Source: Candidatus Fermentibacterota bacterium (GTDB lineage: Bacteria; JAFGKV01). Taken from it: a stretch of DNA of 23,549 nt. The position numbers and the translations under genes were made by a program. Below are positions 1,981 to 23,549 of the stretch, in pieces. Numbering within the stretch: the first letter of the stretch is position 1; the number at the start of each line of letters is the position of its first letter. The notes under the pieces are model-generated. The model did not search any database, was not told where the DNA came from, and saw nothing but the letters and a program-made list of their open reading frames with translations. The stretch covers positions 1-23,549 of the forward strand of contig JAUXFG010000051.1 in the NCBI GenBank assembly GCA_030620115.1. Direction: 5' to 3'.

Positions 1981-2735
1981 TCCATTTCCGCCAAGGATTC
2001 GTCATCATGGGAAGGATCATGATGGAAGAGCAAGAGACGACGCACCGATGCGGCCCGTGCTAGCGCTATGCCATGCTGCCACGTGCTGTGCCCCCATCCC
2101 TCGCGCGCTGGATACTCGTCTGGAAAGAATGTGGCATCATATAGGAGAAGATCGGCGTTCCGGGCGAGACAGAACAGTCCCTCATCCACGCCGGAAGCCG
2201 GATGTTCGGTATCCGTGGCATAGACAAAGATCTTATGGTCGCAACAGATGCGGTAGGAGTATCCTCCTCCAGGATGATTCGTCAGGGTTCTCGATACGGT
2301 GAAGGGACCGAGAGCCATGGGTCCTTCATCCGGCCATCCCTGAAAAGTGATATCTGCGCCAAGAGAGGAGAACGGCAAAGGGAAATAGGGATCATCCATC
2401 TGTCCTTTCAGCGCCTGTTCCCACGTACCACCTTGTGGGGGGCCTCCGTAGATCAAGAGCTTGACCTCGGGAGAGTTTGCCGGAGAGAATAACGGGAAGC
2501 CTTGGATGTGATCCCAATGAACATGTGAAAAGAGCATCCTGATGAGTTTGCTTTCTTCTTTCCGGGATTCGAGTTTTTTCCCGAGATGATAGATGCCGGT
2601 TCCGGCATCCAAGACCAAGAGAGCTCCGTCCGACGCGATGCATGAGACACATGGGGTGTTCCCGCCATAGACTGTTGGCGATCCCCCCATGGGAAGTGTT
2701 CCTCTGGAACCCCAGATTTCAATCTGCACTGCCAC
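1914..2735 (-). CDS. Metallo-beta-lactamase fold hydrolase (PhnP/phosphodiesterase-like)
   Basis: 273 residues. The opening WGSRGT-P motif and the metal site typical of the MBL fold are visible: H71-x-H73-x-D75-H76, H154 (NHPGG), D175 (ATDTEH), and later D200 (YDATF), H216 (GHST) and H238-H239 (FHHDPSH). These are the ligands for two zinc or manganese ions in cyclic phosphodiesterases such as PhnP and the related COG1235 proteins, which cleave phosphodiester bonds of small cyclic nucleotides or sugar phosphates. No signal peptide, so it should be cytoplasmic. It is followed at once by the glycosyltransferase, so the two are probably co-transcribed; a functional link is not evident. Fold certain from the ligand set, substrate unknown. 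Confidence 0.85.
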   Translation of the reverse strand: MAVQIEIWGSRGTLPMGGSPTVYGGNTPCVSCIASDGALLVLDAGTGIYHLGKKLESRKEESKLIRMLFSHVHWDHIQGFPLFSPANSPEVKLLIYGGPPQGGTWEQALKGQMDDPYFPLPFSSLGADITFQGWPDEGPMALGPFTVSRTLTNHPGGGYSYRICCDHKIFVYATDTEHPASGVDEGLFCLARNADLLLYDATFFPDEYPAREGWGHSTWQHGIALARAASVRRLLLFHHDPSHDDESLAEMEWRAQQEFSSVEAAREGPVILD

Positions 2736-2772
2736 CGCCTTGCGGAGTAGAACACGAACGTGAGTTGGCTAG

Positions 2773-2963
2773 CCTGGACTTCTCACCGGCCTTCGTCGCG
2801 AAATGGTCCCGCGCCGACGCGGGACAAGGCTTGTGACCGAGGCCGGCCGAAGGCGTATCCTCTGCGATACGTCGAGGGCGACCGACAGAGCGTAACGAAG
2901 TCCCGCGTCCGACGCGGGATGCTATATCTGCCGTTGTAGCAGAAGGCTGGTGAGAAATCCGGG
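2773..2963. repeat. Type A palindromic intergenic element, copy A2
   Basis: About 191 bp in the 516-base gap between the hydrolase and exbB. Left end CCTGGACTTCTCACC (2773-2787), right end GGTGAGAAATCCGGG (2949-2963). It has two inner hairpins made of the same unit: GTCCCGCG-ccga-CGCGGGAC at 2806-2825 and GTCCCGCG-tccga-CGCGGGA at 2900-2919. The core between them (GACCGAGG, GATACGTCGAGG, GAGCGTAACGAAG) matches copy A1. After the right end the bases ATGATTCCCG also recur after copy A4. Apart from this element the gap 2736-3251 shows only a possible TTGACA box at 3113-3118. Confidence 0.82.
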
Positions 2964-3237
2964 CTATGATTCCCGACAGAGGATGCCACGCTTCTTGGCG
3001 ATGATGACGACACCCGTACTGTCGCAGATGACTGGCAGTGATACACAGGCAATGCTTCCTCGTCAAGAGGTGTCTTCTCCCGAGCATCCAAGCCATCATG
3101 CGAGAAAAAGGGTTGACATCAGAGCACAGGGTGTGCAAATCTGCGGCGTTGCCATAGTGATTTTTTCCGTTGATCCCAAATTATCCATTCTAAGGTGAAG
3201 CAGGGGTCAATCGGTCGGTTCGTTCTGCTCCCTACAG

Positions 3238-3244
3238 AAGGAGG
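3238..3244 (+). promoter_or_regulatory. Shine-Dalgarno site that fixes the exbB start
   Basis: AAGGAGG ends seven bases before the GTG at 3252-3254. The longer in-frame opening at GTG 3195 has no such site. Confidence 0.7.
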
Positions 3245-3251
3245 CAATGGC

Positions 3252-3890
3252 GTGGTCAAATTGTTCCATGACGGTGGCGATATGATGTGGCCGCTTCTCG
3301 CTTTCTCGATTGCGGGAATTGCAATCATCATCTGGCGGCTGATTGTGCTCACGCGAGCCGGTGCTGCATCGCGCAGTGTGGTCAAGAAGCTTCGCAAGGC
3401 CATAACTGGAGGTGATATCGAAGGAGCCATCAGTGTGTGTGAACGGGCGAGCGGCCCCATTGCGGTGATCATGCTGGCCGGTCTCCGCCGGGTACATCGT
3501 GGTCCGGAATCAGTCGCCAAAGCGATTGAAAGTGCTGGAACGCTGGAGATGGCCTTCTTGGAGAGAGGGCTGATCTGGCTCTCCACCATTGGCACCATCG
3601 CCCCGCTGGTAGGATTCCTCGGTACGGTTATTGGTATGATCCAAGCATTTGCCGCCATCGAGGTTGCCGGAGAAGTCGAAGCAACACTGGTGGCTGGTGG
3701 TATCAAGGTCGCCCTGATCACCACTGCAACCGGGCTTGCCGTGGCTATTCCCATGAACATATTTCATAACTACTTCGTGACGAGGATCGATTCCTTGATT
3801 CTCGACATGGAAGAAAGCTCTGCCCATCTCATGGATGTTATTGAGAAGGGTCAATCAGTGGCGACAGAAGGCGGCGGTGTTCTCATATAG
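3252..3890 (+). CDS. exbB: ExbB/TolQ/MotA-family proton channel protein
   Basis: 212 residues from the GTG at 3252, chosen for its strong ribosome-binding site; an in-frame GTG at 3195 would add 19 residues with no support. Three membrane segments are visible: about residues 13-32, 108-133 and 150-172, the usual ExbB pattern with a long cytoplasmic loop between the first two. The motif APLVGFLGTVIGMI (117-130) and the third-helix ITTATGLAVAIP stretch are hallmarks of the family; the third-helix threonines line the proton path. Together with ExbD it turns the proton motive force into mechanical work on TonB. First gene of exbB-exbD-exbD-tonB. Confidence 0.95.
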   Translation: MVKLFHDGGDMMWPLLAFSIAGIAIIIWRLIVLTRAGAASRSVVKKLRKAITGGDIEGAISVCERASGPIAVIMLAGLRRVHRGPESVAKAIESAGTLEMAFLERGLIWLSTIGTIAPLVGFLGTVIGMIQAFAAIEVAGEVEATLVAGGIKVALITTATGLAVAIPMNIFHNYFVTRIDSLILDMEESSAHLMDVIEKGQSVATEGGGVLI

Positions 3891-3902
3891 GAGCAGTGGG
3901 TC

Positions 3903-4334
3903 ATGCTGAAGCGTAGGATAAAGACGTCGGATGAGATCCCGACCTCCTCCATGGCGGATATTGCTTTTCTGCTCCTTGTATTCTTTCTGGTCACGACTCA
4001 CTTTCTTGAAGAAAAGGGTCTCGGATTGGTGCTCCCCGAGCCCAATCCTTCGAAGGATCAGATCGCCAAGGTCCGCAAGAGCAATATGATGTACTTTGTG
4101 GTCCATGGAAGCAATCATATCGTGATGAAACACCAGGATGAGGAGCGTGTCATGGCCGTGCCGGAGATACGAAGCTTCGTGCATGCCAGATTGCAGGCCA
4201 ATGATCAGCTGATTGTGAGCATCAAACCTGCGCCTGATGCGCCGTACGGTGCCATGATCGATGTACTTGATGAGCTTCGTGCGGCGGATGCTCGGAAGAT
4301 CACACTAGGCCAGTTGAAGCCGGGTGAGGGATAG
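3903..4334 (+). CDS. exbD: ExbD/TolR-family biopolymer transport protein, first copy
   Basis: 143 residues, one membrane helix at about 17-34 carrying the conserved proton-binding aspartate (D19, in SSMADIAFLLLVFF), followed by a periplasmic domain. The start ATG lies 12 bases after the exbB stop. Residues 1-30 are close to those of the next gene, but the periplasmic parts differ (about 45-143), so the two are old paralogues, not a recent duplication. In the ExbB5-ExbD2 motor the ExbD helices sit in the ExbB pore; two different ExbD proteins could form a heterodimer. Confidence 0.93.
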   Translation: MLKRRIKTSDEIPTSSMADIAFLLLVFFLVTTHFLEEKGLGLVLPEPNPSKDQIAKVRKSNMMYFVVHGSNHIVMKHQDEERVMAVPEIRSFVHARLQANDQLIVSIKPAPDAPYGAMIDVLDELRAADARKITLGQLKPGEG

Positions 4335-4343
4335 GAGGCGGTC

Positions 4344-4754
4344 ATGGGAACCTTCAAGAAGAAGACAAGAGTCGACACGGAAATCCCGGCATCTTCCATG
4401 GCGGATTTGGCCTTCCTTCTTCTGATCTTTTTTATGGTGAGCACGGTATTCAAGACCGAGCAAGGCCTAAAGATCATCCTGCCGGAAGCTGAGATGACCG
4501 TCAAGATTCAGAAACGGCGCGATGTCCGACACGTGTGGGTCAACCGGGCGGGAACCATCAATGTTGATGATCTGCCGATGTCATCATTCAAGATGGCCCA
4601 GATCCTCAATGGGGATCTCCAGAAGAACCCGGGCATGATCGTGGGTATCAGGGCGGACGCGTTGGCGCCTTACACGGTGGTGAATGACGTGTTGGCGGGA
4701 TGTCAGCTGGCCGGTGCGTTCAGGGTTCAGTTTGCCACTACTACGGAGAAGTAA
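4344..4754 (+). CDS. exbD: ExbD/TolR-family biopolymer transport protein, second copy
   Basis: 136 residues with the same plan as its upstream paralogue: a basic N-terminus, D21 in SSMADLAFLLLIFF, one membrane helix (about 18-36) and a periplasmic domain. AGGAGG lies five bases before the ATG, and the spacing from the first exbD stop is nine bases. The periplasmic domain is clearly diverged from copy one, which suggests different jobs (for example one contacting TonB, one the peptidoglycan). That division of labour is inference. Confidence 0.92.
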   Translation: MGTFKKKTRVDTEIPASSMADLAFLLLIFFMVSTVFKTEQGLKIILPEAEMTVKIQKRRDVRHVWVNRAGTINVDDLPMSSFKMAQILNGDLQKNPGMIVGIRADALAPYTVVNDVLAGCQLAGAFRVQFATTTEK

Positions 4755-4775
4755 GACTATCTGAGGGAGCGTGCC

Positions 4776-5405
4776 ATGGCTGCTATCAAGACATATCTCC
4801 TCCGTGAGCAAGCGGCGCTTTTCTTCAAGAGAAGCGTGCTGCTGGCTCTGCTGATCCATCTGTTCGGTCTCGTGGCGGTGCCCGAATACAAGATCAAGGT
4901 CCGTTCCTACTCGAAGAAGGACGTCGAGGCCATCGAACTGCCTGTGGACATGAAGGTCCCGGAGAAGGAAAAAGCCACGGTGCCCCGGCCTACTATTCCC
5001 GTAGAGGCGGAGGAAGATGAGGACGTACCGGAAGACAGCACCATCGAGGAGACTGTTCTCGACGAGGATATGGCCGCTCCCGATGAGCCGCCGCCGGTGT
5101 TGCCGAAATTCGGGACATTCGTTGCCTACGATTCCAGGCCTGAGCCTATCAAGTTCGTGGCCCCCGATTATCCGGAGCTTGCCAAACAAGCGGGTATCGA
5201 AGGCACGGTGGTTACACAGCTTCTTATTGGAACAGATGGCAGAGTCTACGATGTAAAAGTGATGAATGGGCCGGAGATCTTCCATGCGGTCGTGAGGGCG
5301 GCTGCACGGAAATGTTTATTCACACCTGCGAAACAGCGGGACAAACCAGTGGCGGTGTGGGTTGGAGTTCCGTTTATCTTCAGCCTCAAGGAGGGGCGAG
5401 GTTAG
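4776..5405 (+). CDS. tonB: TonB energy transducer
   Basis: 209 residues. N-terminal membrane anchor at about 19-35, a periplasmic linker (about 40-112) and a TonB C-terminal domain at about 122-204 (APDYPELAKQAGIEGTVVTQ, then GRVYDVKV, then AVRAAARKCLFTPAKQRDK in outline). The linker is unusual: the Pro-Lys-rich stretch of enterobacterial TonB is replaced by a mainly acidic, Pro-containing one (for example VEAEEDEDVPED at 76-87). It should couple the ExbBD motor to outer-membrane TonB-dependent receptors. No receptor gene is present in this window, so the cargo is unknown. Last gene of the operon, 21 bases after exbD. Confidence 0.92.
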   Translation: MAAIKTYLLREQAALFFKRSVLLALLIHLFGLVAVPEYKIKVRSYSKKDVEAIELPVDMKVPEKEKATVPRPTIPVEAEEDEDVPEDSTIEETVLDEDMAAPDEPPPVLPKFGTFVAYDSRPEPIKFVAPDYPELAKQAGIEGTVVTQLLIGTDGRVYDVKVMNGPEIFHAVVRAAARKCLFTPAKQRDKPVAVWVGVPFIFSLKEGRG

Positions 5406-9388: not shown

Positions 9389-10714
9389 TTACTCCGCCCA
9401 GTACTCTCTTACCTCAATGCCGAGTCTTCCAAGCTCGGCCAGGATCGGATCATAGAGCGGCTGCACCGTGGGGATATGGACACCGGTGAGGTCAATGGTT
9501 CCATCGATGAGTAGCCTGGTTCCTACCGCTGCGGGGAGGCTTACCGTTCTCGCCATGGCGGAATCGCCTTCAGGCTCTCCGAATGCGACTATGGAGGCCT
9601 TGATGGAACGGGGTTTCTCCCTCCCAGGGTACGTGGCAAGGAATTCGTGGAGAAGGACAATCATGTCCTTCTCGCCGCTCTTGTACGGCATGAGCTCACC
9701 AAGACGGGCGGAAAGGGCATCCACCAATGAATTCGAATTTTCTGCAATGGGAATCGTATCGAACAGGCCAATCCAGGCGAGATTCCTCATCTCTCTGCTA
9801 TCCGGATGGATGGAGAGTCGCTGGGCAACGGTTTTCCGCAAGGTCTGGCCTTCAGCCGGGGGAACGAGTTCGGCCGTGATGTCGGCCAAGGTCTTGGAGC
9901 CCAAGTCAGAGCGTTCGTCGGTGCAGAGGATACCGAGTTCAACAAGCTTCTGCCACGTGGGACACCATCCGTAATTCCGAAGCGTGCCGCGTAGCATGGT
10001 CTTTGTGCCTTGCAGGCCGTAGATCTCCACATAGCCGGTGGAATCCCTATTGAGATATGCGTCGAACTCGCCCACGCCCGGCGCGAAAACGGGCCAGTGA
10101 GTCGAAAAAAGCTTGGAATTGGGAACGTAAATGACCTCTCCATGGTCGATATATTTCGCATCGTTGCGGCCAGCGAGAATGACACCTTTTGGGCTCCATG
10201 AGAACTTGTAGCCAAGTGGATTGTTGTCATCGTCCGGTGCGGGGAGGCCTCCGCAGTAGGAGCGGAATGAAACAATCTCACCGCCCCCGGCCTTGACTGC
10301 TTCGATGACTTGCATTGCGGACATATGGTCGATACCGGGATCAAGGCCGAGTTCATTAAGCAGAAGCACGCCCGCGTCCTTTGCCGATTGATCCAGTGCC
10401 TTCATGTCTGCGCTCACATAACTCGTGGTAATGAGGTGACGCTTGAGCCGTATGCATCGTTTTGCGATGTCGACATGAAATGCATAGGGGAGGAGGCTGA
10501 TCACGACAGTGGATGCCTCGATGAGCTCATCCAGCCCTTCTGGGGCGTTGATGTTCAATGACAGGCTCTTTCCCTTGGGATGGTCACCGATGATGGCCTC
10601 GGCCTTGGACACGGTTCTCGAAGCCATGGTGACTGAGACATTTTCCTGATCGAGCAGATAGCGAACCAAAGGTTTCGATACGAGGCCCGCTCCCAATACG
10701 AGAACATTTTTCAT
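9389..10714 (-). CDS. Saccharopine dehydrogenase, glutamate-forming (LYS9/SDH type)
   Basis: 441 residues from the ATG at 10712-10714, which has AAGGAG 11 bases upstream; the open frame reaches 10756 but adds only 14 unlikely residues. The Rossmann NAD(P) loop is at residues 5-13 (VLVLGAGLV), with NELGLDPGIDHM, GYKFSWSP, NRDSTGYVEIYGL and TMLRGTLR further on. These are hallmarks of the saccharopine reductase/dehydrogenase family and of the C-terminal half of animal and plant bifunctional LKR/SDH. Reaction: saccharopine + NAD(P)+ to glutamate + 2-aminoadipate semialdehyde. Its gene follows the reductase gene by 65 bases, so the pair very likely degrades lysine (established for LKR-SDH pairs; direction here is inferred). 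Cytoplasmic. Confidence 0.9.
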   Translation of the reverse strand: MKNVLVLGAGLVSKPLVRYLLDQENVSVTMASRTVSKAEAIIGDHPKGKSLSLNINAPEGLDELIEASTVVISLLPYAFHVDIAKRCIRLKRHLITTSYVSADMKALDQSAKDAGVLLLNELGLDPGIDHMSAMQVIEAVKAGGGEIVSFRSYCGGLPAPDDDNNPLGYKFSWSPKGVILAGRNDAKYIDHGEVIYVPNSKLFSTHWPVFAPGVGEFDAYLNRDSTGYVEIYGLQGTKTMLRGTLRNYGWCPTWQKLVELGILCTDERSDLGSKTLADITAELVPPAEGQTLRKTVAQRLSIHPDSREMRNLAWIGLFDTIPIAENSNSLVDALSARLGELMPYKSGEKDMIVLLHEFLATYPGREKPRSIKASIVAFGEPEGDSAMARTVSLPAAVGTRLLIDGTIDLTGVHIPTVQPLYDPILAELGRLGIEVREYWAE

Positions 10715-10779
10715 TACAGCTGTTTCTCCTTTTCCGAGGTCAGTGAACACATCCAAAGAACGATAGGGGAGTGAAGACT

Positions 10780-12087
10780 TCAGTCGAAGTGCTTCTCCAG
10801 ATACTTGTAGTCCGGCGCGAGAGTTCCCTTCCAGACAATAACTGCTCTTTTCAACTCAGGCGGCAGGCCGCTTTCCTGCAGGGCGCTCCCATAGTCGGCT
10901 GCCGCCATGTGGGGCATGAACCGCGTCAGCGCGTGGCTGAAGTCCTTCGAAGCTTCGATGGGGAACTCACAAGGTAGATTGTACACAGTCATCATCACGG
11001 GGCCGCACCCCGCAATCCCCGTGATTGTGGAATCGTGAATTGGATCATAGACGTACAGGGGCTCATCTGAATCCGTGGCCCGATCCGTGAATTCGATGGC
11101 GCCGCCAATATCGCAGCTGATGTCGCCGATGGCCTTGAGCCGGGGTCGCACGGGGCTGGTTGTCTGTGCGCGCAGTTGCTCTTTGGTGATGAGCCGGGGG
11201 TATCGATGATCCCAATATATGGCGTTTATCAGCACATTCATGTGAGGCCAATAGCGGTGAAATGTCGACCGGTACTTCTCGGGAGAATCATAGTAGTCCT
11301 GAAGCTCGAATCTGCTTTGCTCATCAACAGGTTCCACGAGATGTTCTTCTTTGAATACGGCCTTGTAGAGCCGGTCGCGGGCGCCACCGGAAGCACGCAG
11401 TTCCGGGATGTCACCAGGGAAGATCTCTTCCACGGGAAGCACGGCAAGCATCTCCTGGGCGCCGGAAGAGACGTGGCCGTAGCCCGTAATGCCTATGATG
11501 AACGGGCAGATTACCTCGGGCAATCCTTGAGCGAGAGGCGAGGCCAATTCAGAGAGAGCCTGCTTCGCATTATCCGTTGTGCGGTAGTGATGCGCAGGCA
11601 ATATTCCGGAGAACGGCGTATCGCATCCCTCCCATTTCAACCTCTGACCCACGGCCCAGAGTGTATCTACCATGCCTGCCGCACCGGCAAAGCGCCCGAA
11701 GAAGATCAAGCGCCTTCCCGAAGCATCTACCATCTTCTCATAATCGATCAACGTGCAGCCAAGCTCCATCAGCCTCTGGAGCATTGGCATGTTGTGTTCC
11801 TGGCCCTTGATCACATGGGAGAAGAAGACATAGGTCTTCTCTCGTTGGATCAGATGCAAAGGTATCTCTTTGACGGCGAGCACGACTGAACATGCGGACA
11901 AGTCATCATTGATGAGGGCGCCTGCGCGTTCGTACTCGTCCGCCGGAATGGCGCGCAATTCCGAAGGTTGCACCACGAACGAGAGATCGTGATGGCGAAT
12001 GAGATTTTCGATGTCCGCTGGTACCAAAGGGGCACGTCCCTCCCAGCGATTGATATCCTCCCCCCGTATTCCAATAGTTGCCTTCAC
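10780..12087 (-). CDS. Lysine-ketoglutarate reductase (LKR domain protein, saccharopine-forming)
   Basis: 435 residues from a GTG at 12085-12087. The open frame continues to 12201, but the extra 38 residues do not resemble the family, and GGAGG (12095-12099) sits exactly seven bases before the GTG. Motifs match the N-terminal half of eukaryotic AASS/LKR-SDH: IRGEDINRWEGRAPL (7-21), VVQPS (38-42), YVFFSHVIKGQEHNMPML (86-103), LIDYEKM, RRLIFFGRFAGAAGMVDTL (125-143) and the nucleotide loop TGYGHVSSGAQEML (201-214). It belongs to the alanine dehydrogenase/transhydrogenase-like fold. Reaction: lysine + 2-oxoglutarate + NAD(P)H to saccharopine. First gene of a two-gene operon with the saccharopine dehydrogenase. 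The semialdehyde dehydrogenase needed next is not in this window. Confidence 0.9.
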   Translation of the reverse strand: MKATIGIRGEDINRWEGRAPLVPADIENLIRHHDLSFVVQPSELRAIPADEYERAGALINDDLSACSVVLAVKEIPLHLIQREKTYVFFSHVIKGQEHNMPMLQRLMELGCTLIDYEKMVDASGRRLIFFGRFAGAAGMVDTLWAVGQRLKWEGCDTPFSGILPAHHYRTTDNAKQALSELASPLAQGLPEVICPFIIGITGYGHVSSGAQEMLAVLPVEEIFPGDIPELRASGGARDRLYKAVFKEEHLVEPVDEQSRFELQDYYDSPEKYRSTFHRYWPHMNVLINAIYWDHRYPRLITKEQLRAQTTSPVRPRLKAIGDISCDIGGAIEFTDRATDSDEPLYVYDPIHDSTITGIAGCGPVMMTVYNLPCEFPIEASKDFSHALTRFMPHMAAADYGSALQESGLPPELKRAVIVWKGTLAPDYKYLEKHFD

Positions 12088-12094
12088 TTCCAGT

Positions 12095-12099
12095 CCTCC
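12095..12099 (-). promoter_or_regulatory. Shine-Dalgarno site that fixes the LKR start
   Basis: GGAGG on the minus strand, seven bases before the GTG start at 12087. Further upstream (about 12229-12238) an AT-rich ATATATATTC stretch on the minus strand could hold a -10 box, but no good -35 accompanies it. Confidence 0.6.
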
Positions 12100-12299
12100 A
12101 CGCACCAGCCACGCTGCTAGTCCTGATGCGAAACATAGAAATAGGGCAGTGGCGCATCTGCCCCAAAGGGGAGCCCGCTTCTCATCCAGCGCCGAGTGCA
12201 ATGGCCTCAGGTGCCAAATGAGGGCTCACGAATATATATGCTGATGAAGCATCCCAAGTTCTGCACGCGGATTTGCGCGTCAAGATGATTCGGCATTAG

Positions 12300-12479
12300 C
12301 CCGCATTTCTCACCAGCTTTCGTCGCGAAGCGATGTAGTTGGCTGTGGCTGTCCCGCACCCAATGCTTTGGGTGCGGGACGACCGAGGACCCCGCAGGCG
12401 TATCCTCTGTCCGCCAGCTGGCGGACAGCAGGCGCAGTCAAATGCGACGCTCCAGCAGAAAGTTGGTGAGAAGTGCGGG
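12300..12479. repeat. Type A palindromic intergenic element, copy A3
   Basis: About 180 bp between CCCGCATTTCTCACC (12300-12314) and GGTGAGAAGTGCGGG (12465-12479). It carries two perfect inner palindromes. One is a hairpin GTCCCGCACCCA-atgctt-TGGGTGCGGGAC (12351-12380). The other is a 22-bp perfect palindrome at 12407-12428 centred on CCAGCTGG. The core GACCGAGGACCCCGCAGGCGTAT matches copies A1 and A2. It sits upstream of the LKR gene. Confidence 0.82.
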
Positions 12480-12621
12480 TTAGCTGATATGAGCCAAGGT
12501 TCGGGACAGATGAAAGGCAACGTGTGCGTTCTTTTGTATTAAGGGTTCGCGCAGAAATAACTTCACATTCTAGCATCCCATCTTCACCGCATCTAGAGCG
12601 CGGATCTCTCGCCAATATTCA

Positions 12622-12856
12622 GCTTTCCTCCTTTGGACTGCGGTAGCCATGCTACCGCCTTTCCCGAGCAAGCCATGCTTGCGCAGACTGTTGGCTATCG
12701 AAGAGTCTGCAATGAGGATTTATCCGTGTAGGGGCATCCGCCAGCTGGCGGACCGTGCCCGGTGGGCGGGAGCTTGGCTCCCGCAGAACAAAGCGCAAGC
12801 CTCGCAGCCAGAACCATTTCTTTTGTCTCATGACGAAAGCCGGTGAGAAGTCCGGG
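12622..12856. repeat. Type A-related composite element, copy A4
   Basis: The left part contains hairpins GCGGTAGC-cat-GCTACCGC and GCAAGC-cat-GCTTGC and is shared with copy A5 (13738-13800). The middle contains TCCGCCAGCTGGCGGA (12738-12753), the same inner palindrome as in A3. The right part has GCAAGCCTCGCAG and the standard right end GGTGAGAAGTCCGGG (12842-12856), followed by TATGATTCCCG as after A2. The element is therefore a mosaic of modules found in other copies. Confidence 0.65.
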
Positions 12857-16212: not shown

Positions 16213-16546
16213 TTCTGAGGAAGCGGAGCGACCGAAGGATCTGGGCGGGGAGTGCGGAATCTCGAATCTGACAATCTCTAATCTGAAATCTGGAGCAGAT
16301 GAAGAGAGATTCTTCGCTTCCTGTGGTCGCTCAGAATGACAGTGGCAATTGGCATTGGTTGAGAGAATGTGTGTCATTCTGAGGGAGCAGCGCGACCGAA
16401 GAATCTGGGGGAGAGGAGGGGGAATGAACGTCGAACATTCAACATCCAACATCGAATGGGAGAAGGGGAGTGGGGGAGAGAAGGTGGTTGGCATTGGGCG
16501 TGACAACACGTGTCATTCTGAGGGAGCAGCGCGACCGAAGAATCTG
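16213..16546. repeat. Type C repeat cluster upstream of the respiratory operon
   Basis: Units in order: GGAGCGACCGAAGGATCTGG (16223-16242); GAATCTGACAATCTCTAATC (16264-16283); a reversed TGTCATTCTGAG…GAATCTC unit (16304-16341); a forward one (16372-16407); a GAACATTCAACATCCAACAT unit (16433-16452) running into the 35-bp unit at 16448-16482; and another forward TGTCATTCTGAG…GAAGAATCTG unit (16511-16546). The 850-base gap 15826-16675 holds B2, this cluster and nothing else recognisable. Confidence 0.75.
16448..16482. repeat. 35-bp unit, perfect direct repeat of 23515-23549
   Basis: Begins AACATCGAATGGGAGAAGGG and ends GTGGGGGAGAGAA. It is identical base for base to the last 35 bases of the window, in the same orientation. 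The identity may extend beyond the window edge. A related inverted unit is at 9280-9330. Confidence 0.95.
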
Positions 16547-16675
16547 TGTGTGTGGTGATTGCCTGCTTGAGTAGTGAGCTATGACGATGAGGATTCTGTT
16601 CTTAGGGTTGGCGCAAGAATCAACTCTTTCCGAGATCCTTCCGCCATTCCCCCAGCATCCGATCTGAGGTGTAAG

Positions 16676-17173
16676 GTGGGCAAGGTGGGCGCTGTTCTCT
16701 CTTCCGTCATCCTCCTCTTCCTTCTATGGCTCGCGCTCACCATGAGCCAGGATCCCCAGGAGTTGATCCTGGGAGGCGTACTGTGTGTGCTCATCGCGGT
16801 GGCCACACATGGCGTCTTCACAGGTAATATGTTCAGGCTCCTGCGGCCCAGGCGTTTCGCGGCGCTCCTCGAATATATGGGATACTTGCTCTATCAGATG
16901 GCAAGAGCCAATATCGATGTGGCGAGCAGGGTGCTTCGGTTGAGGCCCGTCGTGAATCCGGGGATCGTGAAGGCGGATGCCCGACTCTCCAGCAGTCGCG
17001 CCCGGGCGATTCTTGCGAACTCCATCACGTTGACACCGGGGACCCTGTCGGTGGATCTACGCGATTCCTCACTGTACGTGCACTGGATCTCCCTGCCCGA
17101 AGGCGATGTCTCTGCAGAGACGCAACATATGGTGGACGGGTTTGCCAGGAGATTGGAGAAGATCTTTGAGTAA
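16676..17173 (+). CDS. mnhE: MnhE/MrpE-family subunit (MbhA/MbsA-like)
   Basis: 165 residues from the GTG at 16676, which has GAGG six bases upstream and gives the usual family length; the open frame starts at GTG 16574, but those 34 hydrophilic residues are unlike the family and have no ribosome site. Two or three N-terminal membrane segments (LSSVILLFLLWLALTM, then LILGGVLCVLIAVATHGVF) precede the conserved cytoplasmic part with RARAILANSITLTPGTLSVD, the MnhE signature. In Mrp antiporters and in MBH/MBS this subunit belongs to the Na+/H+ translocation module. First gene of a nine-gene operon in which most genes overlap. Confidence 0.9.
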   Translation: MGKVGAVLSSVILLFLLWLALTMSQDPQELILGGVLCVLIAVATHGVFTGNMFRLLRPRRFAALLEYMGYLLYQMARANIDVASRVLRLRPVVNPGIVKADARLSSSRARAILANSITLTPGTLSVDLRDSSLYVHWISLPEGDVSAETQHMVDGFARRLEKIFE

Positions 17174-17426
17174 TACCTTCTCACTGATACTCCTTGTCCT
17201 GTTGGGGGCAGGCTTTGCCATGGCGTTTATTCGCTTGGTAATAGCCCGAACAGCCGGTGATCGCGCGGTGGCGCTGGATGGTGCAACCCTCATCTCCGTA
17301 GATCTCATGGTTTTGATGGCATTCCTTATGGGCAGAAGCATGCTCCTGGATGTAGTTCTGGTCTATGCGCTTCTGTCATTTCTCGGGGTGCTGGCCATCG
17401 CACGATATCTGGAAGGCGGGCTGTAG
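17166..17426 (+). CDS. mnhF: MnhF/MrpF-family subunit (MbhB/MbsB-like)
   Basis: 86 residues from TTG 17166, with GGAG upstream; overlaps the mnhE stop by eight bases. Three membrane helices with the family features RTAGDRAVALD and the final IARYLEGG. The open frame begins at 17106, but the first 20 codons read through the mnhE 3' end and are not family-like. Small membrane subunit of the antiporter module. Confidence 0.88.
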   Translation: MSNTFSLILLVLLGAGFAMAFIRLVIARTAGDRAVALDGATLISVDLMVLMAFLMGRSMLLDVVLVYALLSFLGVLAIARYLEGGL

Positions 17427-17753
17427 ATGATTCTCTTATCCGCTCTCGGCCACGTGCTTCTTCTTATCGGAGCCATCTTCCTATGCATCAGCGGGTTGGG
17501 AATCCTTCGCATGCCCGACGTATGGAACAGGATGCATGCGGGGACCAAGGCCACCACACTAGGGTCCATCGCCTTCATGTTAGGGTTGGGGCTCATCAGG
17601 CCCGAATGGCTGCCAAAGCTCCTGGTTATTGCCCTGTTCATTGTTCTGACGAATCCCGTGTCGAGTCATGCGCTTGCCCGGGCAGTGCATGGCGTTCCAG
17701 AGGAGAAACCGGACAATCTGCAGCGGGACGATCTTCAGGAAGCGGATTCATGA
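17427..17753 (+). CDS. mnhG: MnhG/MrpG-family subunit (MbhC/MbsC-like)
   Basis: 108 residues; ATG follows the mnhF stop with no gap. Three membrane helices; the motif GLGILRMPDVWNRMHAGTKA (24-43) is the MnhG signature (RxPDxYxRxHA). A hydrophilic tail of about 25 residues follows the last helix. Its stop overlaps the next start (ATGA). Confidence 0.92.
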   Translation: MILLSALGHVLLLIGAIFLCISGLGILRMPDVWNRMHAGTKATTLGSIAFMLGLGLIRPEWLPKLLVIALFIVLTNPVSSHALARAVHGVPEEKPDNLQRDDLQEADS

Positions 17754-17998
17754 ACCCGGATTTTCTTCTGGGTATCGCCTCTGTGGCCGGTGTTTCCATG
17801 ATTATCGCTGCAGTGCGGGCAATATTCGTGAGAGATCTCCTCTCAGCTATCATACTCGTGGGCTTCGTCAGCTTGACGGCCTCGGTGCTTTTTTTCCTCA
17901 TGGACGCACCGGACGTCGCCATCACTGAGGCGAGTATTGGCGCCGGGATTTCGACGGTCATCTTCCTCTGGGGCCGCTCCAAGGTGCGTGAAGAGTGA
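17750..17998 (+). CDS. DUF4040/MbhD-like subunit (corresponds to part of the MrpA C-terminus)
   Basis: 82 residues, three membrane helices. RDLLSAIILVG…SLTASVLFFLMDAPDVAITEA is the MbhD/DUF4040 signature, which in Mrp antiporters is fused to MrpA. The glutamate in DVAITEA is conserved in the family and lies in the proton/sodium path. Start at ATG 17750 overlaps the mnhG stop by four bases; a longer frame (from 17483) only reads through mnhG. Confidence 0.9.
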   Translation: MNPDFLLGIASVAGVSMIIAAVRAIFVRDLLSAIILVGFVSLTASVLFFLMDAPDVAITEASIGAGISTVIFLWGRSKVREE

Positions 17999-18681
17999 GA
18001 ACCTTTATCGCATTCCTTCTGGCCCTATATCTCGTGTTCTTCGCGGCTGCCGCTTTTGAGTCTTTTGGAGAACCTCAGGGGTTGGGGCGCATTGCCGAGC
18101 ACTATGCTGCCGAAGGATTTGAAGAGGTCGGCGCGATCAATTTGGTGACTGCCGTGGTGGTGACGTATCGGGGATTGGATACCTTGGGAGAGGTGAGTGT
18201 TCTTTTCACCGCGGCATCGGCAGTCATCCTTCTGCTCTCCGTGTTCCCTCTCGGCAAACCAGCCAACAAGCCAAGCAGCATTGTTCTTCTGACGATGAAA
18301 GTACTCCCTGGGCCGATTCTGCTCTTCGGCGGCTATATCATCGCCCACGGCCATCTGACTCCAGGGGGCGGTTTCCCAGGGGGCGCCGTGGTTGCATCAG
18401 CGGCACTCTTGGTCCTCCTGGGCTGTACCCAAGAGGTTGGGTTCGCGAAGTGGCTTACCTTTGCAGAATCCATGGCAGGTTTCTCCTTCGCCATGTTGGG
18501 TTTCTGGGGATTGCTGAAATTGGGGCAATTCCTGAACAACTCAGTTTTGTTTCTTGGGATTCCAGGACAACTCCTTTCTGCGGGGATCATTCCCCTGATC
18601 TCGGCTGCCATAGGAGTGAAGGTTGCCAGTGAGCTCTCGGGAATTCTCGTGGCCTATCGATGTGGAGGAGGCAAGGAATGA
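17995..18681 (+). CDS. mnhB: MbhE-MnhB (MbhF) fusion subunit
   Basis: 228 residues from GTG 17995, which overlaps the previous stop (GTGA). Residues 1-85 match MbhE: one N-terminal helix, a short loop, then the conserved NLVTAVVVTYRGLDTLGE (49-66) and a second helix. Residues 95-225 match MnhB/MbhF with four helices and GHLTPGGGFPGGAVVASA (119-136). In archaeal MBH these are two genes, mbhE and mbhF; here they are one. Part of the Na+ translocation module. Confidence 0.88.
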   Translation: MRTFIAFLLALYLVFFAAAAFESFGEPQGLGRIAEHYAAEGFEEVGAINLVTAVVVTYRGLDTLGEVSVLFTAASAVILLLSVFPLGKPANKPSSIVLLTMKVLPGPILLFGGYIIAHGHLTPGGGFPGGAVVASAALLVLLGCTQEVGFAKWLTFAESMAGFSFAMLGFWGLLKLGQFLNNSVLFLGIPGQLLSAGIIPLISAAIGVKVASELSGILVAYRCGGGKE

Positions 18682-19037
18682 GCCTATCACTGGTGCTCCT
18701 TCTTTCTTCCATGGGGCTTTTACTCACCGGCCTCGTGGGCATCATGGCGAAGAAACATCTTCTGCGGATTGCCCTGGCGTTCACCCTGGCCTCCACCGGC
18801 GTGAATATCCTTCTGGTATGGACTGGGTATCTCGCGGGGCGGAAGGCTCCCATCATCGACGCAAGTATCGAAGAAATCGCTACCGTGGCAGTGGTTGATC
18901 CCGTGCCGCAGGCGCTTGTTCTGACTTCCATCGTGATAGGTGTCGCCGTGTCCGCGCTTCTCGTCGTAGTGGCAGTACTCACCAGTCGGGAGTTAGGCAC
19001 CGCGGACGTACGTCGGATGAGGAATCTCAAGTGGTAA
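18678..19037 (+). CDS. mnhC: MnhC/NuoK-family subunit (MbhG/MbsG-like)
   Basis: 119 residues from ATG 18678, with GGAGGAG seven bases before it; overlaps the previous stop by four bases. Three membrane helices, with NILLVW in the second and DPVPQALVLTSIVIGVAVSA in the third, typical of MnhC and NuoK. Bridges the Na+ module and the large antiporter-like subunit. Confidence 0.92.
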   Translation: MSLSLVLLLSSMGLLLTGLVGIMAKKHLLRIALAFTLASTGVNILLVWTGYLAGRKAPIIDASIEEIATVAVVDPVPQALVLTSIVIGVAVSALLVVVAVLTSRELGTADVRRMRNLKW

Positions 19038-21991
19038 CAATTGCCGCGTTCTCCATCTTCCTGCCTCTTGCGGGCGCATTTATCACGGCGTTTCTGGCCA
19101 AAGCGGCTCCTCGCGCGGCAGAGCTTCTGGGAAAGGCGGTCTTGGCGGCAGGGCTGGTACTGACCGCCAAAGTCGCGTCGAATCTCGGGGCATGGGATCT
19201 ATGGGGGCTTTCCCAGGCGATTCTTATCCCAACAGGTGTCGGGATACCCCCATTCAGCATAGATCTTGTGGTGACGGCAGGTGCGTCTCTCGTGGCCGTA
19301 GTCATCTACGGAGTCGCCCTCCTCTCTCTTGGAAGGATTGTGGGAGAGGGAGGGCAGAAACGGCTTCCGTTGAGCCTATCGCTCGTCACCGCTTCGTTGG
19401 GACTCCTCTATGCCACCGATCTATTCAATTCGTTTGTTTTTCTGGAGATCGGAAGCATCGTCACTATTGGATTGGCTGCATCGCGGGGCGGGCCGAGACG
19501 ATGGGAGGCGGCGGTGAAGCTGGCCTTGATATCGGGTCTTGTGACGATCCTCTTCCTCATCGTAGTTGCCCTTGTGTATCGGTCCACCGGTGAACTGAGG
19601 CTTGTTGCCCTGGGAAGGACCGGCGGTCTTGTTGCCGTGGTGACATCAGTGCTCATGTTGGCGATCATCATGGCCGAGACAAAAGCCTTTCCACTCTTGG
19701 GATGGGGAGTTGACTACTACCACGGGATCTGGCCTCCCTTCGCGGCATTGTACAGCGGTACATGGAGCCTGGCCATGCTTCTGTGGGGGGTAAAGGTCTT
19801 GCCTCTTCTCCCGGTGGCCCAAGACCCGAGGATCTATGCCTGGCTTGGGGCTGGCGGACTCGTGGCCAGCCAGGTGGCGGGGCTGCGGCAGAGGAGTCCC
19901 TCGAGGCCCCTGGGCTATTCAACATCCGCGTTTGCGTCCCTGCTGCTTCTCCTGGTTGCCTTTGTATACGACCCTGATCAGCTTCTCCGGCTGGCGGTCC
20001 TTCTTTTTGGAGGGCAAGCCCTGGCAAAGTTCGGCCTTTTTATGTTGGCTGGTCGAGAAGCTCATGGCGACCGATGGGAAAAAGCCGGCGCCCGCTGGAG
20101 GGTTTTGCTGGTTTTTGCGCTGATCGGTCTTCCGCCTTTCCCCGTCTTCTGGGCCAAGTTCGAGCTCTTGTCCGAGATGGCCCGGTTCTGGCCCGCCATG
20201 CTCGGACCGGTGCTTCTGGGGCTTTTCTTGGAGGCGGTGTACGTGCTCCGGTTCTGGGCCCAACGATCCGGAGGAGAGCCGGAGGGTGATGCGCTCTGGC
20301 CGTCACGACTCGGGGTCCTCGGTCTTCTTGCCGGGGGATATCTTGCCGCGCGCTTCATGTGGCCGGACATGAGCTGGTCAATGCCCGCGTATCTGCCCCC
20401 TTTTATGTCGTTGATCTTTGGCGTCATGTTTGTTGCCGGAGCCGTGGCGGTGCTTCCCGGCGCCCTTCTCAGGTGGCGTCAGGATGCAGGTCACGGCCTG
20501 TGGTTGGGGCTCGCCGCGGTTTCCCTTTTAGGCATATTCTTCGCCACAAGCGGCCTGTCCCTCTATGTTGCCTGGGAGATATCGGCCTTTGCCTCGGTGA
20601 TGGCAGTAAGCAAGGGCGGATTCAGGGGGAGAGGCTCTGCATTCTGGTTCGCTGCCTTTGCCGCTTTCTCAGGTTATCTCGTGCTGGGAGCCGTCCTGCT
20701 GAGCGGCGGTTCTATTCGCGGTCTCGGCCTCTTCCCCGCGGTACTTCTCATCGCGCTGGCGGTGGTGGTGAAGCTGGGGCAGGCGGGGGCACATCTTTGG
20801 TCGGTAAGGGCGTATCGTTCCGCACCGGGTACGGTGAGCGCCTTTCTTGCCGGCGTCTCGTCCAAGGGCGTGATCTATCTGTTGATGCTTGGTCTTGTGG
20901 GTCTCGTGGGGCTCCCAGGAAAGGACCATAATCTGGGCCTGATCCTGGCATGGATTGGCGTCTTCACCGCCTTGGGAGGTGCGATCCTCGCATCGCTTTC
21001 GGGCACGCCCAAGAAACTGCTTGCGTACTCGAGCGTGTCGCAGCTGGGATACGTGCTGGTTGGTCTCGGCCTCATGACGCCGCTGGGATGGACGGCGGCG
21101 GTGTATCACACGGTCCACCACTTCTTATTCAAGACGGTTCTCTTCTTGGGGATCGCCGGCGTGCTCTATCGGACAGGAGGTCGCTTTTTCACCGATCTTG
21201 GCGGTCTCATCAAGAAGATGCCCTTTACCTTTCTATTCACCCTGATCGCCGTGATTTCTTATGCCGGCGTGCCGCCTTTGGCGGGATTCGGGGGAAAATG
21301 GCTCCTGTACCAGGGGCTCTTGGATGCCGGCCGGCTTCCCCTTGCGGCGGTGGCGATGTGCGCTTCTGTGGTGGCCTTTCTCTACAGCTTCCGCCTATTA
21401 CACGGTGTATTCCTTGGGCAGCTTTCGTCAAAGAACAAGTCGGTTCGGGAAGCACCTTTAGCCCTGATTCTCCCACAGTTTGTGCTTGTGTGCGGCATCT
21501 TCGTGATGAGTTTTCGGCCCACCCTCTTCTTGGAGAGGCTTTTGCCGGAAATGACGCAGCTATTTGGCTGGCCGATGTCTTTGAAGGGATTCTCCATCAA
21601 TGGGTTCTCCGTCCTTGGGCCGTTTGGGCACTGGAATGCCTGGGCAGTTGGGATGATGGTATTCCTTCTATTCGGCGTGGCATTTGTCTTCTACTGGGTG
21701 AGTGGCCCCAAGCCGAAGCATGTGGGCCAGCTTGATATCGGCTACTCAGGAGAGCTGCCCCCATCGCCCGAGGAAGTTCATTTTTCGTTTGAGTTCTACC
21801 GGCACTATGAACGGGCGTTGGTCTTTCTCCCGTCCTGGGGAGCAGAGAGGATCTTTGCTTGGTTCGTCTCTTTGGTGAACGGGGCAGGCGACCTGACGCG
21901 CATCCTGGTGAGCGGCGACGGGAGGACCTACCTGATCCACATCGTGCTGTTCGTGGTTTGTGGATTCATGCTTCTCTGGGGGATGCCGTAA
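19031..21991 (+). CDS. mnhD: Fused double antiporter-like subunit (MbsH-MbsH'; MnhD/NuoL-M-N family)
   Basis: 986 residues from GTG 19031 (overlaps mnhC by seven bases), about twice the usual length. Two antiporter-like halves are visible. Half 1 (about 1-440): E139 in FLEIGS, K218 in AETKAFPLLGW, K333 in ALAKFGLFMLAGR, and GLPPFPVFWAKFELL (366-380). Half 2 (about 455-840): E516 in YVAWEISAF, K581 with H588 in KLGQAGAHLW, KKLLAYSSVSQLGY (661-674), YHTVHHFLFKTVLF (692-705) and GVPPLAGFGGKW (746-757). These charged residues form the proton channels of NuoL/M/N and MrpD. After half 2 comes a ~100-residue tail with two hydrophobic stretches and an amphipathic segment. Half 1 is diverged: the loop-8 lysine pair is replaced (SRPLGYSTSA) and the paired histidines are missing. 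MBS is reported to have two such pumps as separate subunits H and H'. Confidence 0.9.
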   Translation: MVTIAAFSIFLPLAGAFITAFLAKAAPRAAELLGKAVLAAGLVLTAKVASNLGAWDLWGLSQAILIPTGVGIPPFSIDLVVTAGASLVAVVIYGVALLSLGRIVGEGGQKRLPLSLSLVTASLGLLYATDLFNSFVFLEIGSIVTIGLAASRGGPRRWEAAVKLALISGLVTILFLIVVALVYRSTGELRLVALGRTGGLVAVVTSVLMLAIIMAETKAFPLLGWGVDYYHGIWPPFAALYSGTWSLAMLLWGVKVLPLLPVAQDPRIYAWLGAGGLVASQVAGLRQRSPSRPLGYSTSAFASLLLLLVAFVYDPDQLLRLAVLLFGGQALAKFGLFMLAGREAHGDRWEKAGARWRVLLVFALIGLPPFPVFWAKFELLSEMARFWPAMLGPVLLGLFLEAVYVLRFWAQRSGGEPEGDALWPSRLGVLGLLAGGYLAARFMWPDMSWSMPAYLPPFMSLIFGVMFVAGAVAVLPGALLRWRQDAGHGLWLGLAAVSLLGIFFATSGLSLYVAWEISAFASVMAVSKGGFRGRGSAFWFAAFAAFSGYLVLGAVLLSGGSIRGLGLFPAVLLIALAVVVKLGQAGAHLWSVRAYRSAPGTVSAFLAGVSSKGVIYLLMLGLVGLVGLPGKDHNLGLILAWIGVFTALGGAILASLSGTPKKLLAYSSVSQLGYVLVGLGLMTPLGWTAAVYHTVHHFLFKTVLFLGIAGVLYRTGGRFFTDLGGLIKKMPFTFLFTLIAVISYAGVPPLAGFGGKWLLYQGLLDAGRLPLAAVAMCASVVAFLYSFRLLHGVFLGQLSSKNKSVREAPLALILPQFVLVCGIFVMSFRPTLFLERLLPEMTQLFGWPMSLKGFSINGFSVLGPFGHWNAWAVGMMVFLLFGVAFVFYWVSGPKPKHVGQLDIGYSGELPPSPEEVHFSFEFYRHYERALVFLPSWGAERIFAWFVSLVNGAGDLTRILVSGDGRTYLIHIVLFVVCGFMLLWGMP

Positions 21992-22897
21992 ATGCTTGCG
22001 CAGGTAGTACTTGGTCTCGCCACCGCGGTGGGAGGATTGGCGTACGGGCTTTTTCTTGGGGGGTTCTCCAGGAAGATGATTGCGCGGATCCACGGACGCA
22101 TCGGGCCCCCGGTCACTCAGAACTATGTGGATCTTCTGAAGCTCTTTGTGAAAAGAACATCCATCGAGCATGGAACCATGTTTTGGCTGGCGCCCATGTT
22201 CAGAATCACCGGCGGCCTCGGCGTTCTTTTCCTTGTCCCTCTCATCGTGGGCCGCGTAGCGGTGGTGAACTTCTCATTCGCTGGTGACCTGCTGCTGGTT
22301 ATTTACTTCATGTTCTTCGGGTGTCTCGGCATGGCACTGGGAGCAGGAAACTCGGGGCATCCCCACGCCGTGATGGCAGTCACACGCGGATTGGCCCAGA
22401 TGTCATCCTATGAGCTGTCTTTCTCCGTGGTGATCCTTATTCTTGCGGCTGGATTGGGGACGCTTTCCATAGACGGGATCGTCGCGGCGCAACAGGGAGG
22501 GATCGGTCATTGGAACATGGTCCGCTATCCCTTTGCCACGCTGGCGGCGATGATCGCCTTTCTCGGCATGATGATGGCCTATCCCTTCAGTGTGGTGATT
22601 GCGCCGCAGGAGATCCCCATAGGTCCCCCCACTGAGTACAGCAGCAGGTTCCTCTCCTTGATGATGGCGGGGCGCACGGTGTTCGGCGTAGCCAAGCTTC
22701 TGCTCTATATGAATCTCTTCTTTGGTGGTGCGGCGAACTGGGTCGATTTCTTCGTCAAGACTTTCCTGCTGTACATGTATCCGATTTTTGTGAGCACGGT
22801 ATTCCCGCGGTTCCGGGTGGAGCAGAGCGTGCGTTTCTTCATACTTGTTCCCACCGCTATTGCCGCGATTGATCTGATTCGGATCATGGTTCTGTGA
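21992..22897 (+). CDS. nuoH: NuoH/HycD/MbhM-family membrane anchor subunit
   Basis: 301 residues; ATG follows the previous stop without a gap. Eight or so membrane helices. ARIHGRIGPPVTQNYVDLLK (31-50) is the NuoH signature loop, followed later by TRGLAQMSSYELSF and QEIPIGPPTEYSSRF, which carry the conserved acidic residues near the quinone or electron-transfer interface. In complex I, MBH and MBS this subunit joins the peripheral redox arm to the proton pumps. The position directly after the H subunits and before the NuoB-like gene is that of mbsM/mbxM (in MBH, mbhM comes after mbhL). Confidence 0.93.
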   Translation: MLAQVVLGLATAVGGLAYGLFLGGFSRKMIARIHGRIGPPVTQNYVDLLKLFVKRTSIEHGTMFWLAPMFRITGGLGVLFLVPLIVGRVAVVNFSFAGDLLLVIYFMFFGCLGMALGAGNSGHPHAVMAVTRGLAQMSSYELSFSVVILILAAGLGTLSIDGIVAAQQGGIGHWNMVRYPFATLAAMIAFLGMMMAYPFSVVIAPQEIPIGPPTEYSSRFLSLMMAGRTVFGVAKLLLYMNLFFGGAANWVDFFVKTFLLYMYPIFVSTVFPRFRVEQSVRFFILVPTAIAAIDLIRIMVL

Positions 22898-22906
22898 GGA
22901 TGCAAG

Positions 22907-23467
22907 GTGTACTGTAGCGAACGACCGTCCGTTCCCGGAACACGGGGGATCGGCAAGAGGATTGCTGATATCGCGCGGGCGAACTCCCTCTGGGTCGTGG
23001 CGTACGGAACCGGGTGTGGCGCCATCGAGCTTCGGCCGCTTCAAACTGCTCGGTTTGATATGGAACGTTTCGGCATATCAATGCGCGTAACCCCACGTCA
23101 GGCCGACATCATCATCATATCCGGATACCTGGCAGTGAAGACACTGAAGCGTGTTTTGCGCGTTTATGAGCAGATGCAGTCGCCCAAGTACGTGATGGGG
23201 CTTGGCTCCTGTACCATCAACGGAGGGATGTACTACGATTCCTATAATACCATCAACAAGCTCGATCTCTATCTCCCCGTGGATGTATACGTTGCGGGGT
23301 GTATGCCGCGGCCCGAATCGATCATCCAGGGCTTCCAACTGCTCATGAAACAGATCAAGGAGGGAAAGGCCGAGGGATGGCGGCACTATGTGGAGAACTT
23401 GGAATGGTATCGCGAGAACCAGAAACGAGTCATCAAGAACTGGGATCTCCCGGATTACAACTGGTAG
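22907..23467 (+). CDS. nuoB: NuoB/MbhJ/MbsJ-like 4Fe-4S subunit with three cysteine ligands
   Basis: 186 residues from GTG 22907, with GAGGA six bases upstream. It is the small subunit that holds the proximal 4Fe-4S cluster (N2 in complex I). Ligand positions: complex I has CCAIE, this protein has C37-G38-AIE, so one of the paired cysteines is glycine; the other two, C102 (GLGSCTINGG) and C132 (VAGCMPRPE), are present. MBH hydrogenase J subunits have CxxC-D-I-E, which is also absent. A further cysteine, C3, is close to the N-terminus and probably not a ligand. Three ligands fit the site-differentiated cluster described for MBS. The C-terminal ~40 residues (GWRHYVENLEWYRENQKR…) are longer than in MBH. 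Whether K, L and N subunits follow is beyond the window. Confidence 0.9.
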   Translation: MYCSERPSVPGTRGIGKRIADIARANSLWVVAYGTGCGAIELRPLQTARFDMERFGISMRVTPRQADIIIISGYLAVKTLKRVLRVYEQMQSPKYVMGLGSCTINGGMYYDSYNTINKLDLYLPVDVYVAGCMPRPESIIQGFQLLMKQIKEGKAEGWRHYVENLEWYRENQKRVIKNWDLPDYNW

Positions 23468-23514: not shown

Positions 23515-23549
23515 AACATCGAATGGGAGAAGGGGAGTGGGGGAGAGAA
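23515..23549. repeat. 35-bp unit, perfect direct repeat of 16448-16482
   Basis: Runs to the end of the window, so the true length of identity is unknown. Same orientation as the upstream copy, which places the nine-gene respiratory operon between two direct repeats. Confidence 0.95.

Follow-up and report, generated by a model that had tools for sequence, protein, structure and literature searches.

Here we describe an operon for a complex of the complex I superfamily in a bacterium of a little-known lineage, Candidatus Fermentibacterota (GenBank assembly GCA_030620115.1), which is related to the membrane-bound sulfane sulfur reductase (MBS) of Pyrococcus furiosus, encoded there by the mbx genes. 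Nine of its genes lie on the plus strand at positions 16676-23467 of contig JAUXFG010000051.1 (C183), whose entire length of 23,549 bases is the window analysed here, and the remaining three were found on a second contig of the same assembly, C210 (L006, 7,851 bases). The genome measures 4.10 Mb and is 98.3% complete in 296 contigs. With a probability that we put at roughly 0.55, the operon would encode a complete MBS-like ion pump which is fed by NAD(P)H and reduces polysulfide or another S-S bond. An earlier reading of the window, made from its sequence only, had proposed an MBS/Mbx-like respiratory operon and not a plain Mrp antiporter. The MBS family itself is known; what is new in the present analysis is the NAD(P)H module fused to one of the subunits, its spread over many phyla and the fusion of the antiporter-like subunits H and H'.

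Gene content and completion of the operon

The nine genes of the window overlap or are separated by gaps of at most 9 bases and, as the sequence-only reading had named them, each one matched its own Pfam family. The first is an MnhE/MbsA-like subunit of 165 amino acids with an in-frame GTG start (16676..17173; PF01899, 1.9e-36). It is followed by an MrpF/MbsB-like subunit (17166..17426; PF04066, 4.3e-14), whose start is approximate, at about 17160-17178, and by MnhG/MbsC-like (17427..17753; PF03334, 1.9e-26) and MbhD/DUF4040 (17750..17998; PF13244, 1.1e-20) subunits. MbhE and MnhB are fused in one gene (17995..18681; PF20501, 1.5e-7; PF04039, 1.1e-15), next to which lies an MnhC/NuoK-like subunit (18660..19037; PF00420, Oxidored_q2, 2.9e-20). 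The largest gene (19031..21991) encodes an antiporter-like protein of 986 amino acids, matched by Proton_antipo_M in two stretches (5e-51). The two H genes that had been expected are both represented in it as halves of one protein, so the subunits stand but the separate genes do not. The last two genes of the window are the NuoH-like M subunit (21992..22897; PF00146, NADHdh, 5.6e-47) and the NuoB-like J subunit with a three-Cys proximal [4Fe-4S] site (22907..23467; Oxidored_q6, 1.5e-23).

The K, L and N genes that were to be sought beyond the end of the window were located on contig C210, near the start of which lies a NuoD-like gene. There, the NuoC-like K ends at position 1200, the NuoD-like L (370 amino acids) spans 1239-2351 and N, a NuoI-GltD fusion of 590 amino acids, spans 2355-4127. 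The full order with C210 added is E-F-G-D-EB-C-HH'-M-J-K-L-N, in which M precedes J and K-L-N come after it, the MBS type that had been proposed. Given that NuoB-, C-, D-, H- and I-like redox subunits are encoded, the operon is indeed more than an Mrp antiporter.

The join between both contigs is backed by synteny, since the genes of the relatives keep one order and strand. A 32-base repeat closes the window (23518..23549, plus strand), and C210 opens with the same 32 bases; the genome contains one further exact copy, at C183:16451, shortly upstream of the operon. It must be considered that a repeat-based join could be false and K-L-N foreign to the operon, as it depends on a repeat with that third copy and about 700 bases containing dispersed repeats separate J from K. 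This is very unlikely, however, because K-L-N come after J in every relative with coverage, including the nearest one (L010), and family searches of the genome found only one NuoH, one NuoB and one NuoD-like gene. Therefore, there is neither a complex I nor a second enzyme of the superfamily in the assembly according to these searches. Dispersed repeats (gtcattctgagggagcagcgcgaccgaagaatctggg and a GGGGAG-rich 32-mer) were observed at window positions 16213-16557 and 23518-23549 and at positions 1-560 of L006, that is, on both sides of mnhE and throughout the J-K interval, and they probably caused the break of the assembly within the operon.

Affiliation with MBS and active-site residues

In phmmer searches against solved structures, L had its best match in MBS (6U8Y, 356 bits), ahead of complex I (235) and of the membrane-bound hydrogenase (MBH; 145). 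The same was true for J (MBS J 215 bits, NDH-1 134, MBH 102), for M (MBS M 115 bits, complex I 60, MBH 52) and for the H' half of the fused antiporter-like protein (MBS H', 6u8y_X, 175 bits; MBH H 135), the first half of which aligns to MBS H. Trees of J and L, in line with the phylogenetic check that had been suggested, placed both with MBS, apart from complex I and hydrogenases. In the maximum-likelihood tree of L, the protein of this genome and its relatives join P. furiosus MBS with a support of 100/99, complex I makes up a separate clade and the hydrogenases are outside at 100/100; the J tree gave the same grouping with MBS with weaker support (89/82). The reference chains of these trees were taken from HMMER alignments and miss a few end residues (one chloroplast NdhK row is one residue short), both trees were built without unfused bacterial Mbx (Thermotoga) and that of L carries a warning on long reference branches, of which the evidence from motifs is independent. 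As judged from these sequence comparisons, the assignment of the core to the MBS/Mbx clade of the complex I superfamily is supported.

The gene order and the subunit set are also those of P. furiosus MBS (PDB 6U8Y; mbx PF1453-PF1441). The mbx and mbh gene orders given in the sequence-only reading agree with the published locus table, in which mbx has the order seen here but with H, H' and N as separate genes, whereas mbh has one H, an I gene and M after L (PMC2678158). The MbhE-MnhB position is occupied by one gene in P. furiosus mbx (PF1449) and by two in mbh (PMC2678158). In the present complex H is fused to H', and N to an NfnL/GltD-type NAD(P)H oxidoreductase, so the free-standing N subunit that is part of MBS in the strict sense was not found. 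It also differs from P. furiosus MBS in being bacterial, with mostly uncultured hosts.

Two other groups of complexes must be mentioned in this regard. The Mbx of Thermotoga and Thermoanaerobacter are likewise bacterial MBS homologues, reported as 13-gene clusters and likened to that of P. furiosus (PMC9431562, PMC3608648, PMC4596419); compared by their descriptions, they differ in having 13 genes or subunits and no mention of a fused NAD(P)H module. The Ehr complexes are similarly related to group 4 hydrogenases, lack the Ni ligands and contain Mrp-like subunits, but a formate dehydrogenase, accompanied by NuoE/F-like genes, has been proposed as their partner (PMC6349859), while the partner here is the fused GltD.

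Structural and mutant data on MBS showed that three cysteines of J, C28, C93 and C123, bind its proximal [4Fe-4S] cluster, whereas C25 does not, and that polysulfide reduction depends on the open iron of this cluster (PMC7684303). J of the window contains these three cysteines in the motifs GTGC, GSC and AGC, with Gly at the C25 position, which is also Gly in all the aligned relatives (33/33). The corresponding motif is CNNC in the hydrogenases of sister genomes and CC in cyanobacterial NDH-1. The J proximal cluster is thereby predicted to be a three-Cys site, as in MBS, the fourth iron of which has no Cys ligand.

With respect to L, MBS conserves two of the four [NiFe] cysteines, C85 and C385 (PMC7684303), and the same two are kept in this genome (CVPE and CPPEIDR). 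Inspection of the downstream large subunit for [NiFe] cysteines, also suggested beforehand, showed that the second Cys of each CxxC pair is absent, and so it is in every aligned member of the family. Replacement of the C85 or C385 position by Ala or Tyr in many family members accords with the published mutants of both residues, in which activity was not abolished (PMC7684303). In the membrane arm, E138, E219 and K393 of MBS are kept in the H half of all full-length members (23/23), as are E128, K217, K248 and K/R399 in the H' half (23/23). The M subunit conserves MbsM E203 and E211, while E104 and E193 were lost throughout the family.

The fused subunit, its distribution and its genomic setting

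The first ~150 residues of the 590-amino acid N subunit are NuoI-like, with both cluster motifs kept, and the rest is GltD/NfnL-like, containing PF14691 (Fer4_20, 1.7e-29) and PF07992 (5.7e-35) domains with GxGxxG and GGGN motifs. The whole protein is matched end to end by NF010590/PRK13984, a 'putative oxidoreductase' annotation family without described function, with a score of 575.7 bits which is below the curated cut-off of 946. Sixteen Fe-S cysteines, predicted to form two NuoI-type and two GltD-type clusters, were invariant across 39 sequences with the exception of one incomplete end. In the AlphaFold model of the L010 homologue the GltD half is good and the NuoI half poor, with a predicted local distance difference test (pLDDT) value <50; Foldseek gave NfnL of P. 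furiosus as the nearest structure of the modelled GltD half (5jca_L, 6.1e-40, 34% identity). NfnL (5JCA chain L) and GltD, the small subunit of glutamate synthase, have the same Fer4_20 and FAD/NAD(P) domains but are separate soluble proteins, whereas here they are covalently joined to a complex I-type NuoI.

The second Rossmann fold of the protein in this operon has an NADPH-type YRR motif. This motif was present in 11/39 sequences, and an insertion plus a Thr-x-Leu-Glu-like motif in the other 28/39. Because one change on the fusion tree, which was built without that region, is enough to account for the two types, the sequences suggest a single switch of nucleotide preference, possibly from NADPH to NADH. 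A search of plasmids revealed none with the fusion, only gltA in Ilyobacter. The PubMed Central (PMC) literature under Creative Commons licences yielded no account of an Mbx fused to GltD, which is weak as evidence of absence.

The relatives were found by scanning genome contigs with the fusion as query, a scope in which unfused Mbx was not sampled. All of those judged (38/38) have the fusion and one gene order and strand, and therefore a chance arrangement is excluded; in 22 of them the twelve genes were all on the fetched stretch. Nine named lineages are represented in total: Fermentibacterota (Sabulitectum, 58% identity), Cloacimonadota, Spirochaetota, Neomarinimicrobiota/Fidelibacterota, Delongbacteria, Bacteroidota, Krumholzibacteriota, a record named Aminicenantes and three Celeribacter. 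Sabulitectum, the nearest named relative, is placed by the Sabulitectum silens paper in the Fibrobacteres-Chlorobi-Bacteroidetes superphylum (PMC5763382), which agrees with the FCB-type host that had been guessed from the window. For Sabulitectum silens, the section of that paper on transcribed sodium-translocating complexes includes an 'NADH-oxidoreductase (ndh)' and does not name Mbx (PMC5763382). The genes of Candidatus Fermentibacteraceae isolate AUK191 (L028) fall within the Cloacimonadota clade, and its contig may have been misbinned or transferred.

Several genomes of relatives contain one NuoD-like gene, and the complex appears to be their sole enzyme of the superfamily. Phylum mapping yielded three genomes, two of them besides the own one. 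In these two (G001 and G002, of the same family; loci L008 and L009), a true group 4 [NiFe] hydrogenase is encoded, and a close relative of the MBS-like complex is lacking. Rubrerythrin-like (8 relatives) and CBS-domain (7 relatives) genes are located just downstream of the fusion, for instance at positions 11773-12715 of locus L032. TetR-type genes were also seen near the operon, in 5 loci, and two Spirochaetia have ArsR-type genes there.

The gene content of the own genome fits an anaerobic fermenter, since it encodes Rnf (a ferredoxin-linked complex), a cytosolic [NiFe] hydrogenase that includes flavin and Fe-S subunits, and a protein with an [FeFe]-hydrogenase domain, and family searches found neither a COX1-type oxidase nor MqnA. 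A MenA-like prenyltransferase scored above the TIGR00751 cut-off. The operon of the cytosolic [NiFe] hydrogenase (L056 3243-7922, G000:C272) has a group 3b appearance and includes a maturation protease. Elsewhere in the window, a saccharopine dehydrogenase gene lies beside that of an AlaDh/PNT-domain protein on the minus strand (9389-12201), a split LKR/SDH-like lysine pair, and consecutive TolQ/ExbB-, ExbD-, ExbD- and TonB-like genes were recognised from their translations at 3195-5405.

Proposed function and its alternatives

In the mechanism that we favour, NADPH, in accordance with the RR-type nucleotide motif of the own genome, would reduce the FAD of the GltD/NfnL-like domain, and the electrons would pass through the two predicted [4Fe-4S] clusters of this domain and the two of the NuoI domain to the proximal cluster of J. 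Polysulfide or another disulfide would be split at the open iron of J, in a hydrophobic chamber between J and L, as proposed for P. furiosus MBS. The energy released would then be used for ion movement via M, the fused H-H' pumps and the Mrp-like Na+/H+ module, and reduced ferredoxin may be an additional input at the NuoI domain. We infer this electron direction, the NADPH donor and the sulfane-sulfur acceptor, together with the ion pumped and the stoichiometry; the sulfur role of the complex is presumed from its sequence. The sequence-only reading had pointed to sulfur-dependent or ferredoxin-dependent energy conservation. Since N carries a fused NAD(P)H module of the NfnL/GltD type, a plain ferredoxin-to-sulfur route is probably incomplete as to the electron donor.

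Several points weigh against the NAD(P)H-fed mechanism. The span between NADPH and polysulfide is small, and coupling would therefore be weak unless ferredoxin were the main donor. Given the loss of E104 and E193, two carboxylates of the charged axis in MbsM, the axis leading from the redox site departs from its MBS counterpart, and coupling may differ as well. The electron path between both domains of the fusion is only predicted, and the NuoI half of the model is unreliable. Additionally, the window showed no dedicated sulfur gene next to the operon, and the recurrent neighbours in the relatives are the rubrerythrin-like and CBS proteins and not sulfur enzymes.

The alternative that survives best is that ferredoxin is the true donor, as it is in P. 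furiosus MBS (PMC7684303), and that the GltD module is a side branch making or using NADPH by exchange with ferredoxin, alongside the reduction of sulfur. The two cluster motifs kept in the NuoI-like domain and the ferredoxin-linked Rnf of the genome agree with it, but the fusion in every relative judged suggests a central route, even though the fusion was itself the query of the scan and unfused complexes were not sampled. We regard this alternative as unlikely but worth keeping in mind.

Rather improbable is the original Mbx hypothesis, an ion-pumping ferredoxin:NADP+ oxidoreductase in which the GltD module would be the exit. Mbx has long been so described (PMC4596419, PMC3608648), and an NADP-type module is physically attached here. 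However, a route from NuoI to the flavin bypasses the membrane-adjacent J/L chamber, the site of coupling in complex I-type enzymes, and the open J cluster was conserved without exception. To a comparable degree we doubt that the complex represents a branch of its own, as yet unnamed, within the complex I superfamily, spanning about nine bacterial phyla, in which an NfnL/GltD flavoprotein replaces NuoEFG on an MBS core and whose flavin might bifurcate electrons between ferredoxin and sulfur.

Still less probable is an NAD(P)H:quinone oxidoreductase, that is, an analogue of complex I with another entry module. Respiratory complex I has homologous B, C, D, H, I and antiporter-like subunits and, probably, NAD(P)H entry in common with the complex studied, whose entry module appears to be NAD(P)H-oxidising, and the MenA-like prenyltransferase makes a quinone possible. 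Against this, NuoEFG was not seen in the operon, J lacks the tandem cysteines of complex I, both fall into separate clades, and the searches for MqnA and a COX1-type oxidase were negative. Moreover, 36/36 members with sequence there have Thr and Val, as does MBS, at the positions of Nqo4 H38 and Y87, the residues taken here as the quinone ligands of complex I; this argues against quinone chemistry despite the encoded MenA-like enzyme. Finally, a membrane-bound [NiFe] hydrogenase of the MBH/Ech type, with Mrp and Nuo-like subunits in common and a true group 4 large subunit in G001 and G002, is refuted by the lack of two CxxC motifs in L, and by the position of the hydrogenases outside the clade and of M before J.

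Complex I is thought to have originated from an MBH/MBS-like core to which an NADH entry module was added. The NAD(P)H flavoprotein on an MBS-type core is apparently an independent addition of this kind, in one gene order across nine named lineages. If the NAD(P)H-fed, sulfur-reducing function proposed here is correct, it would extend the sulfur chemistry of the open cluster beyond hyperthermophiles to lineages such as Cloacimonadota, Spirochaetota, Neomarinimicrobiota and Delongbacteria, as well as to Celeribacter, a culturable genus which is open to genetic testing and in which C. persicus and C. litoreus have the complete operon (L040/L041). It must be stressed that labels such as 'NADH dehydrogenase' or 'Mrp antiporter' are easily given to these operons and would lead metabolic models of their host lineages astray.

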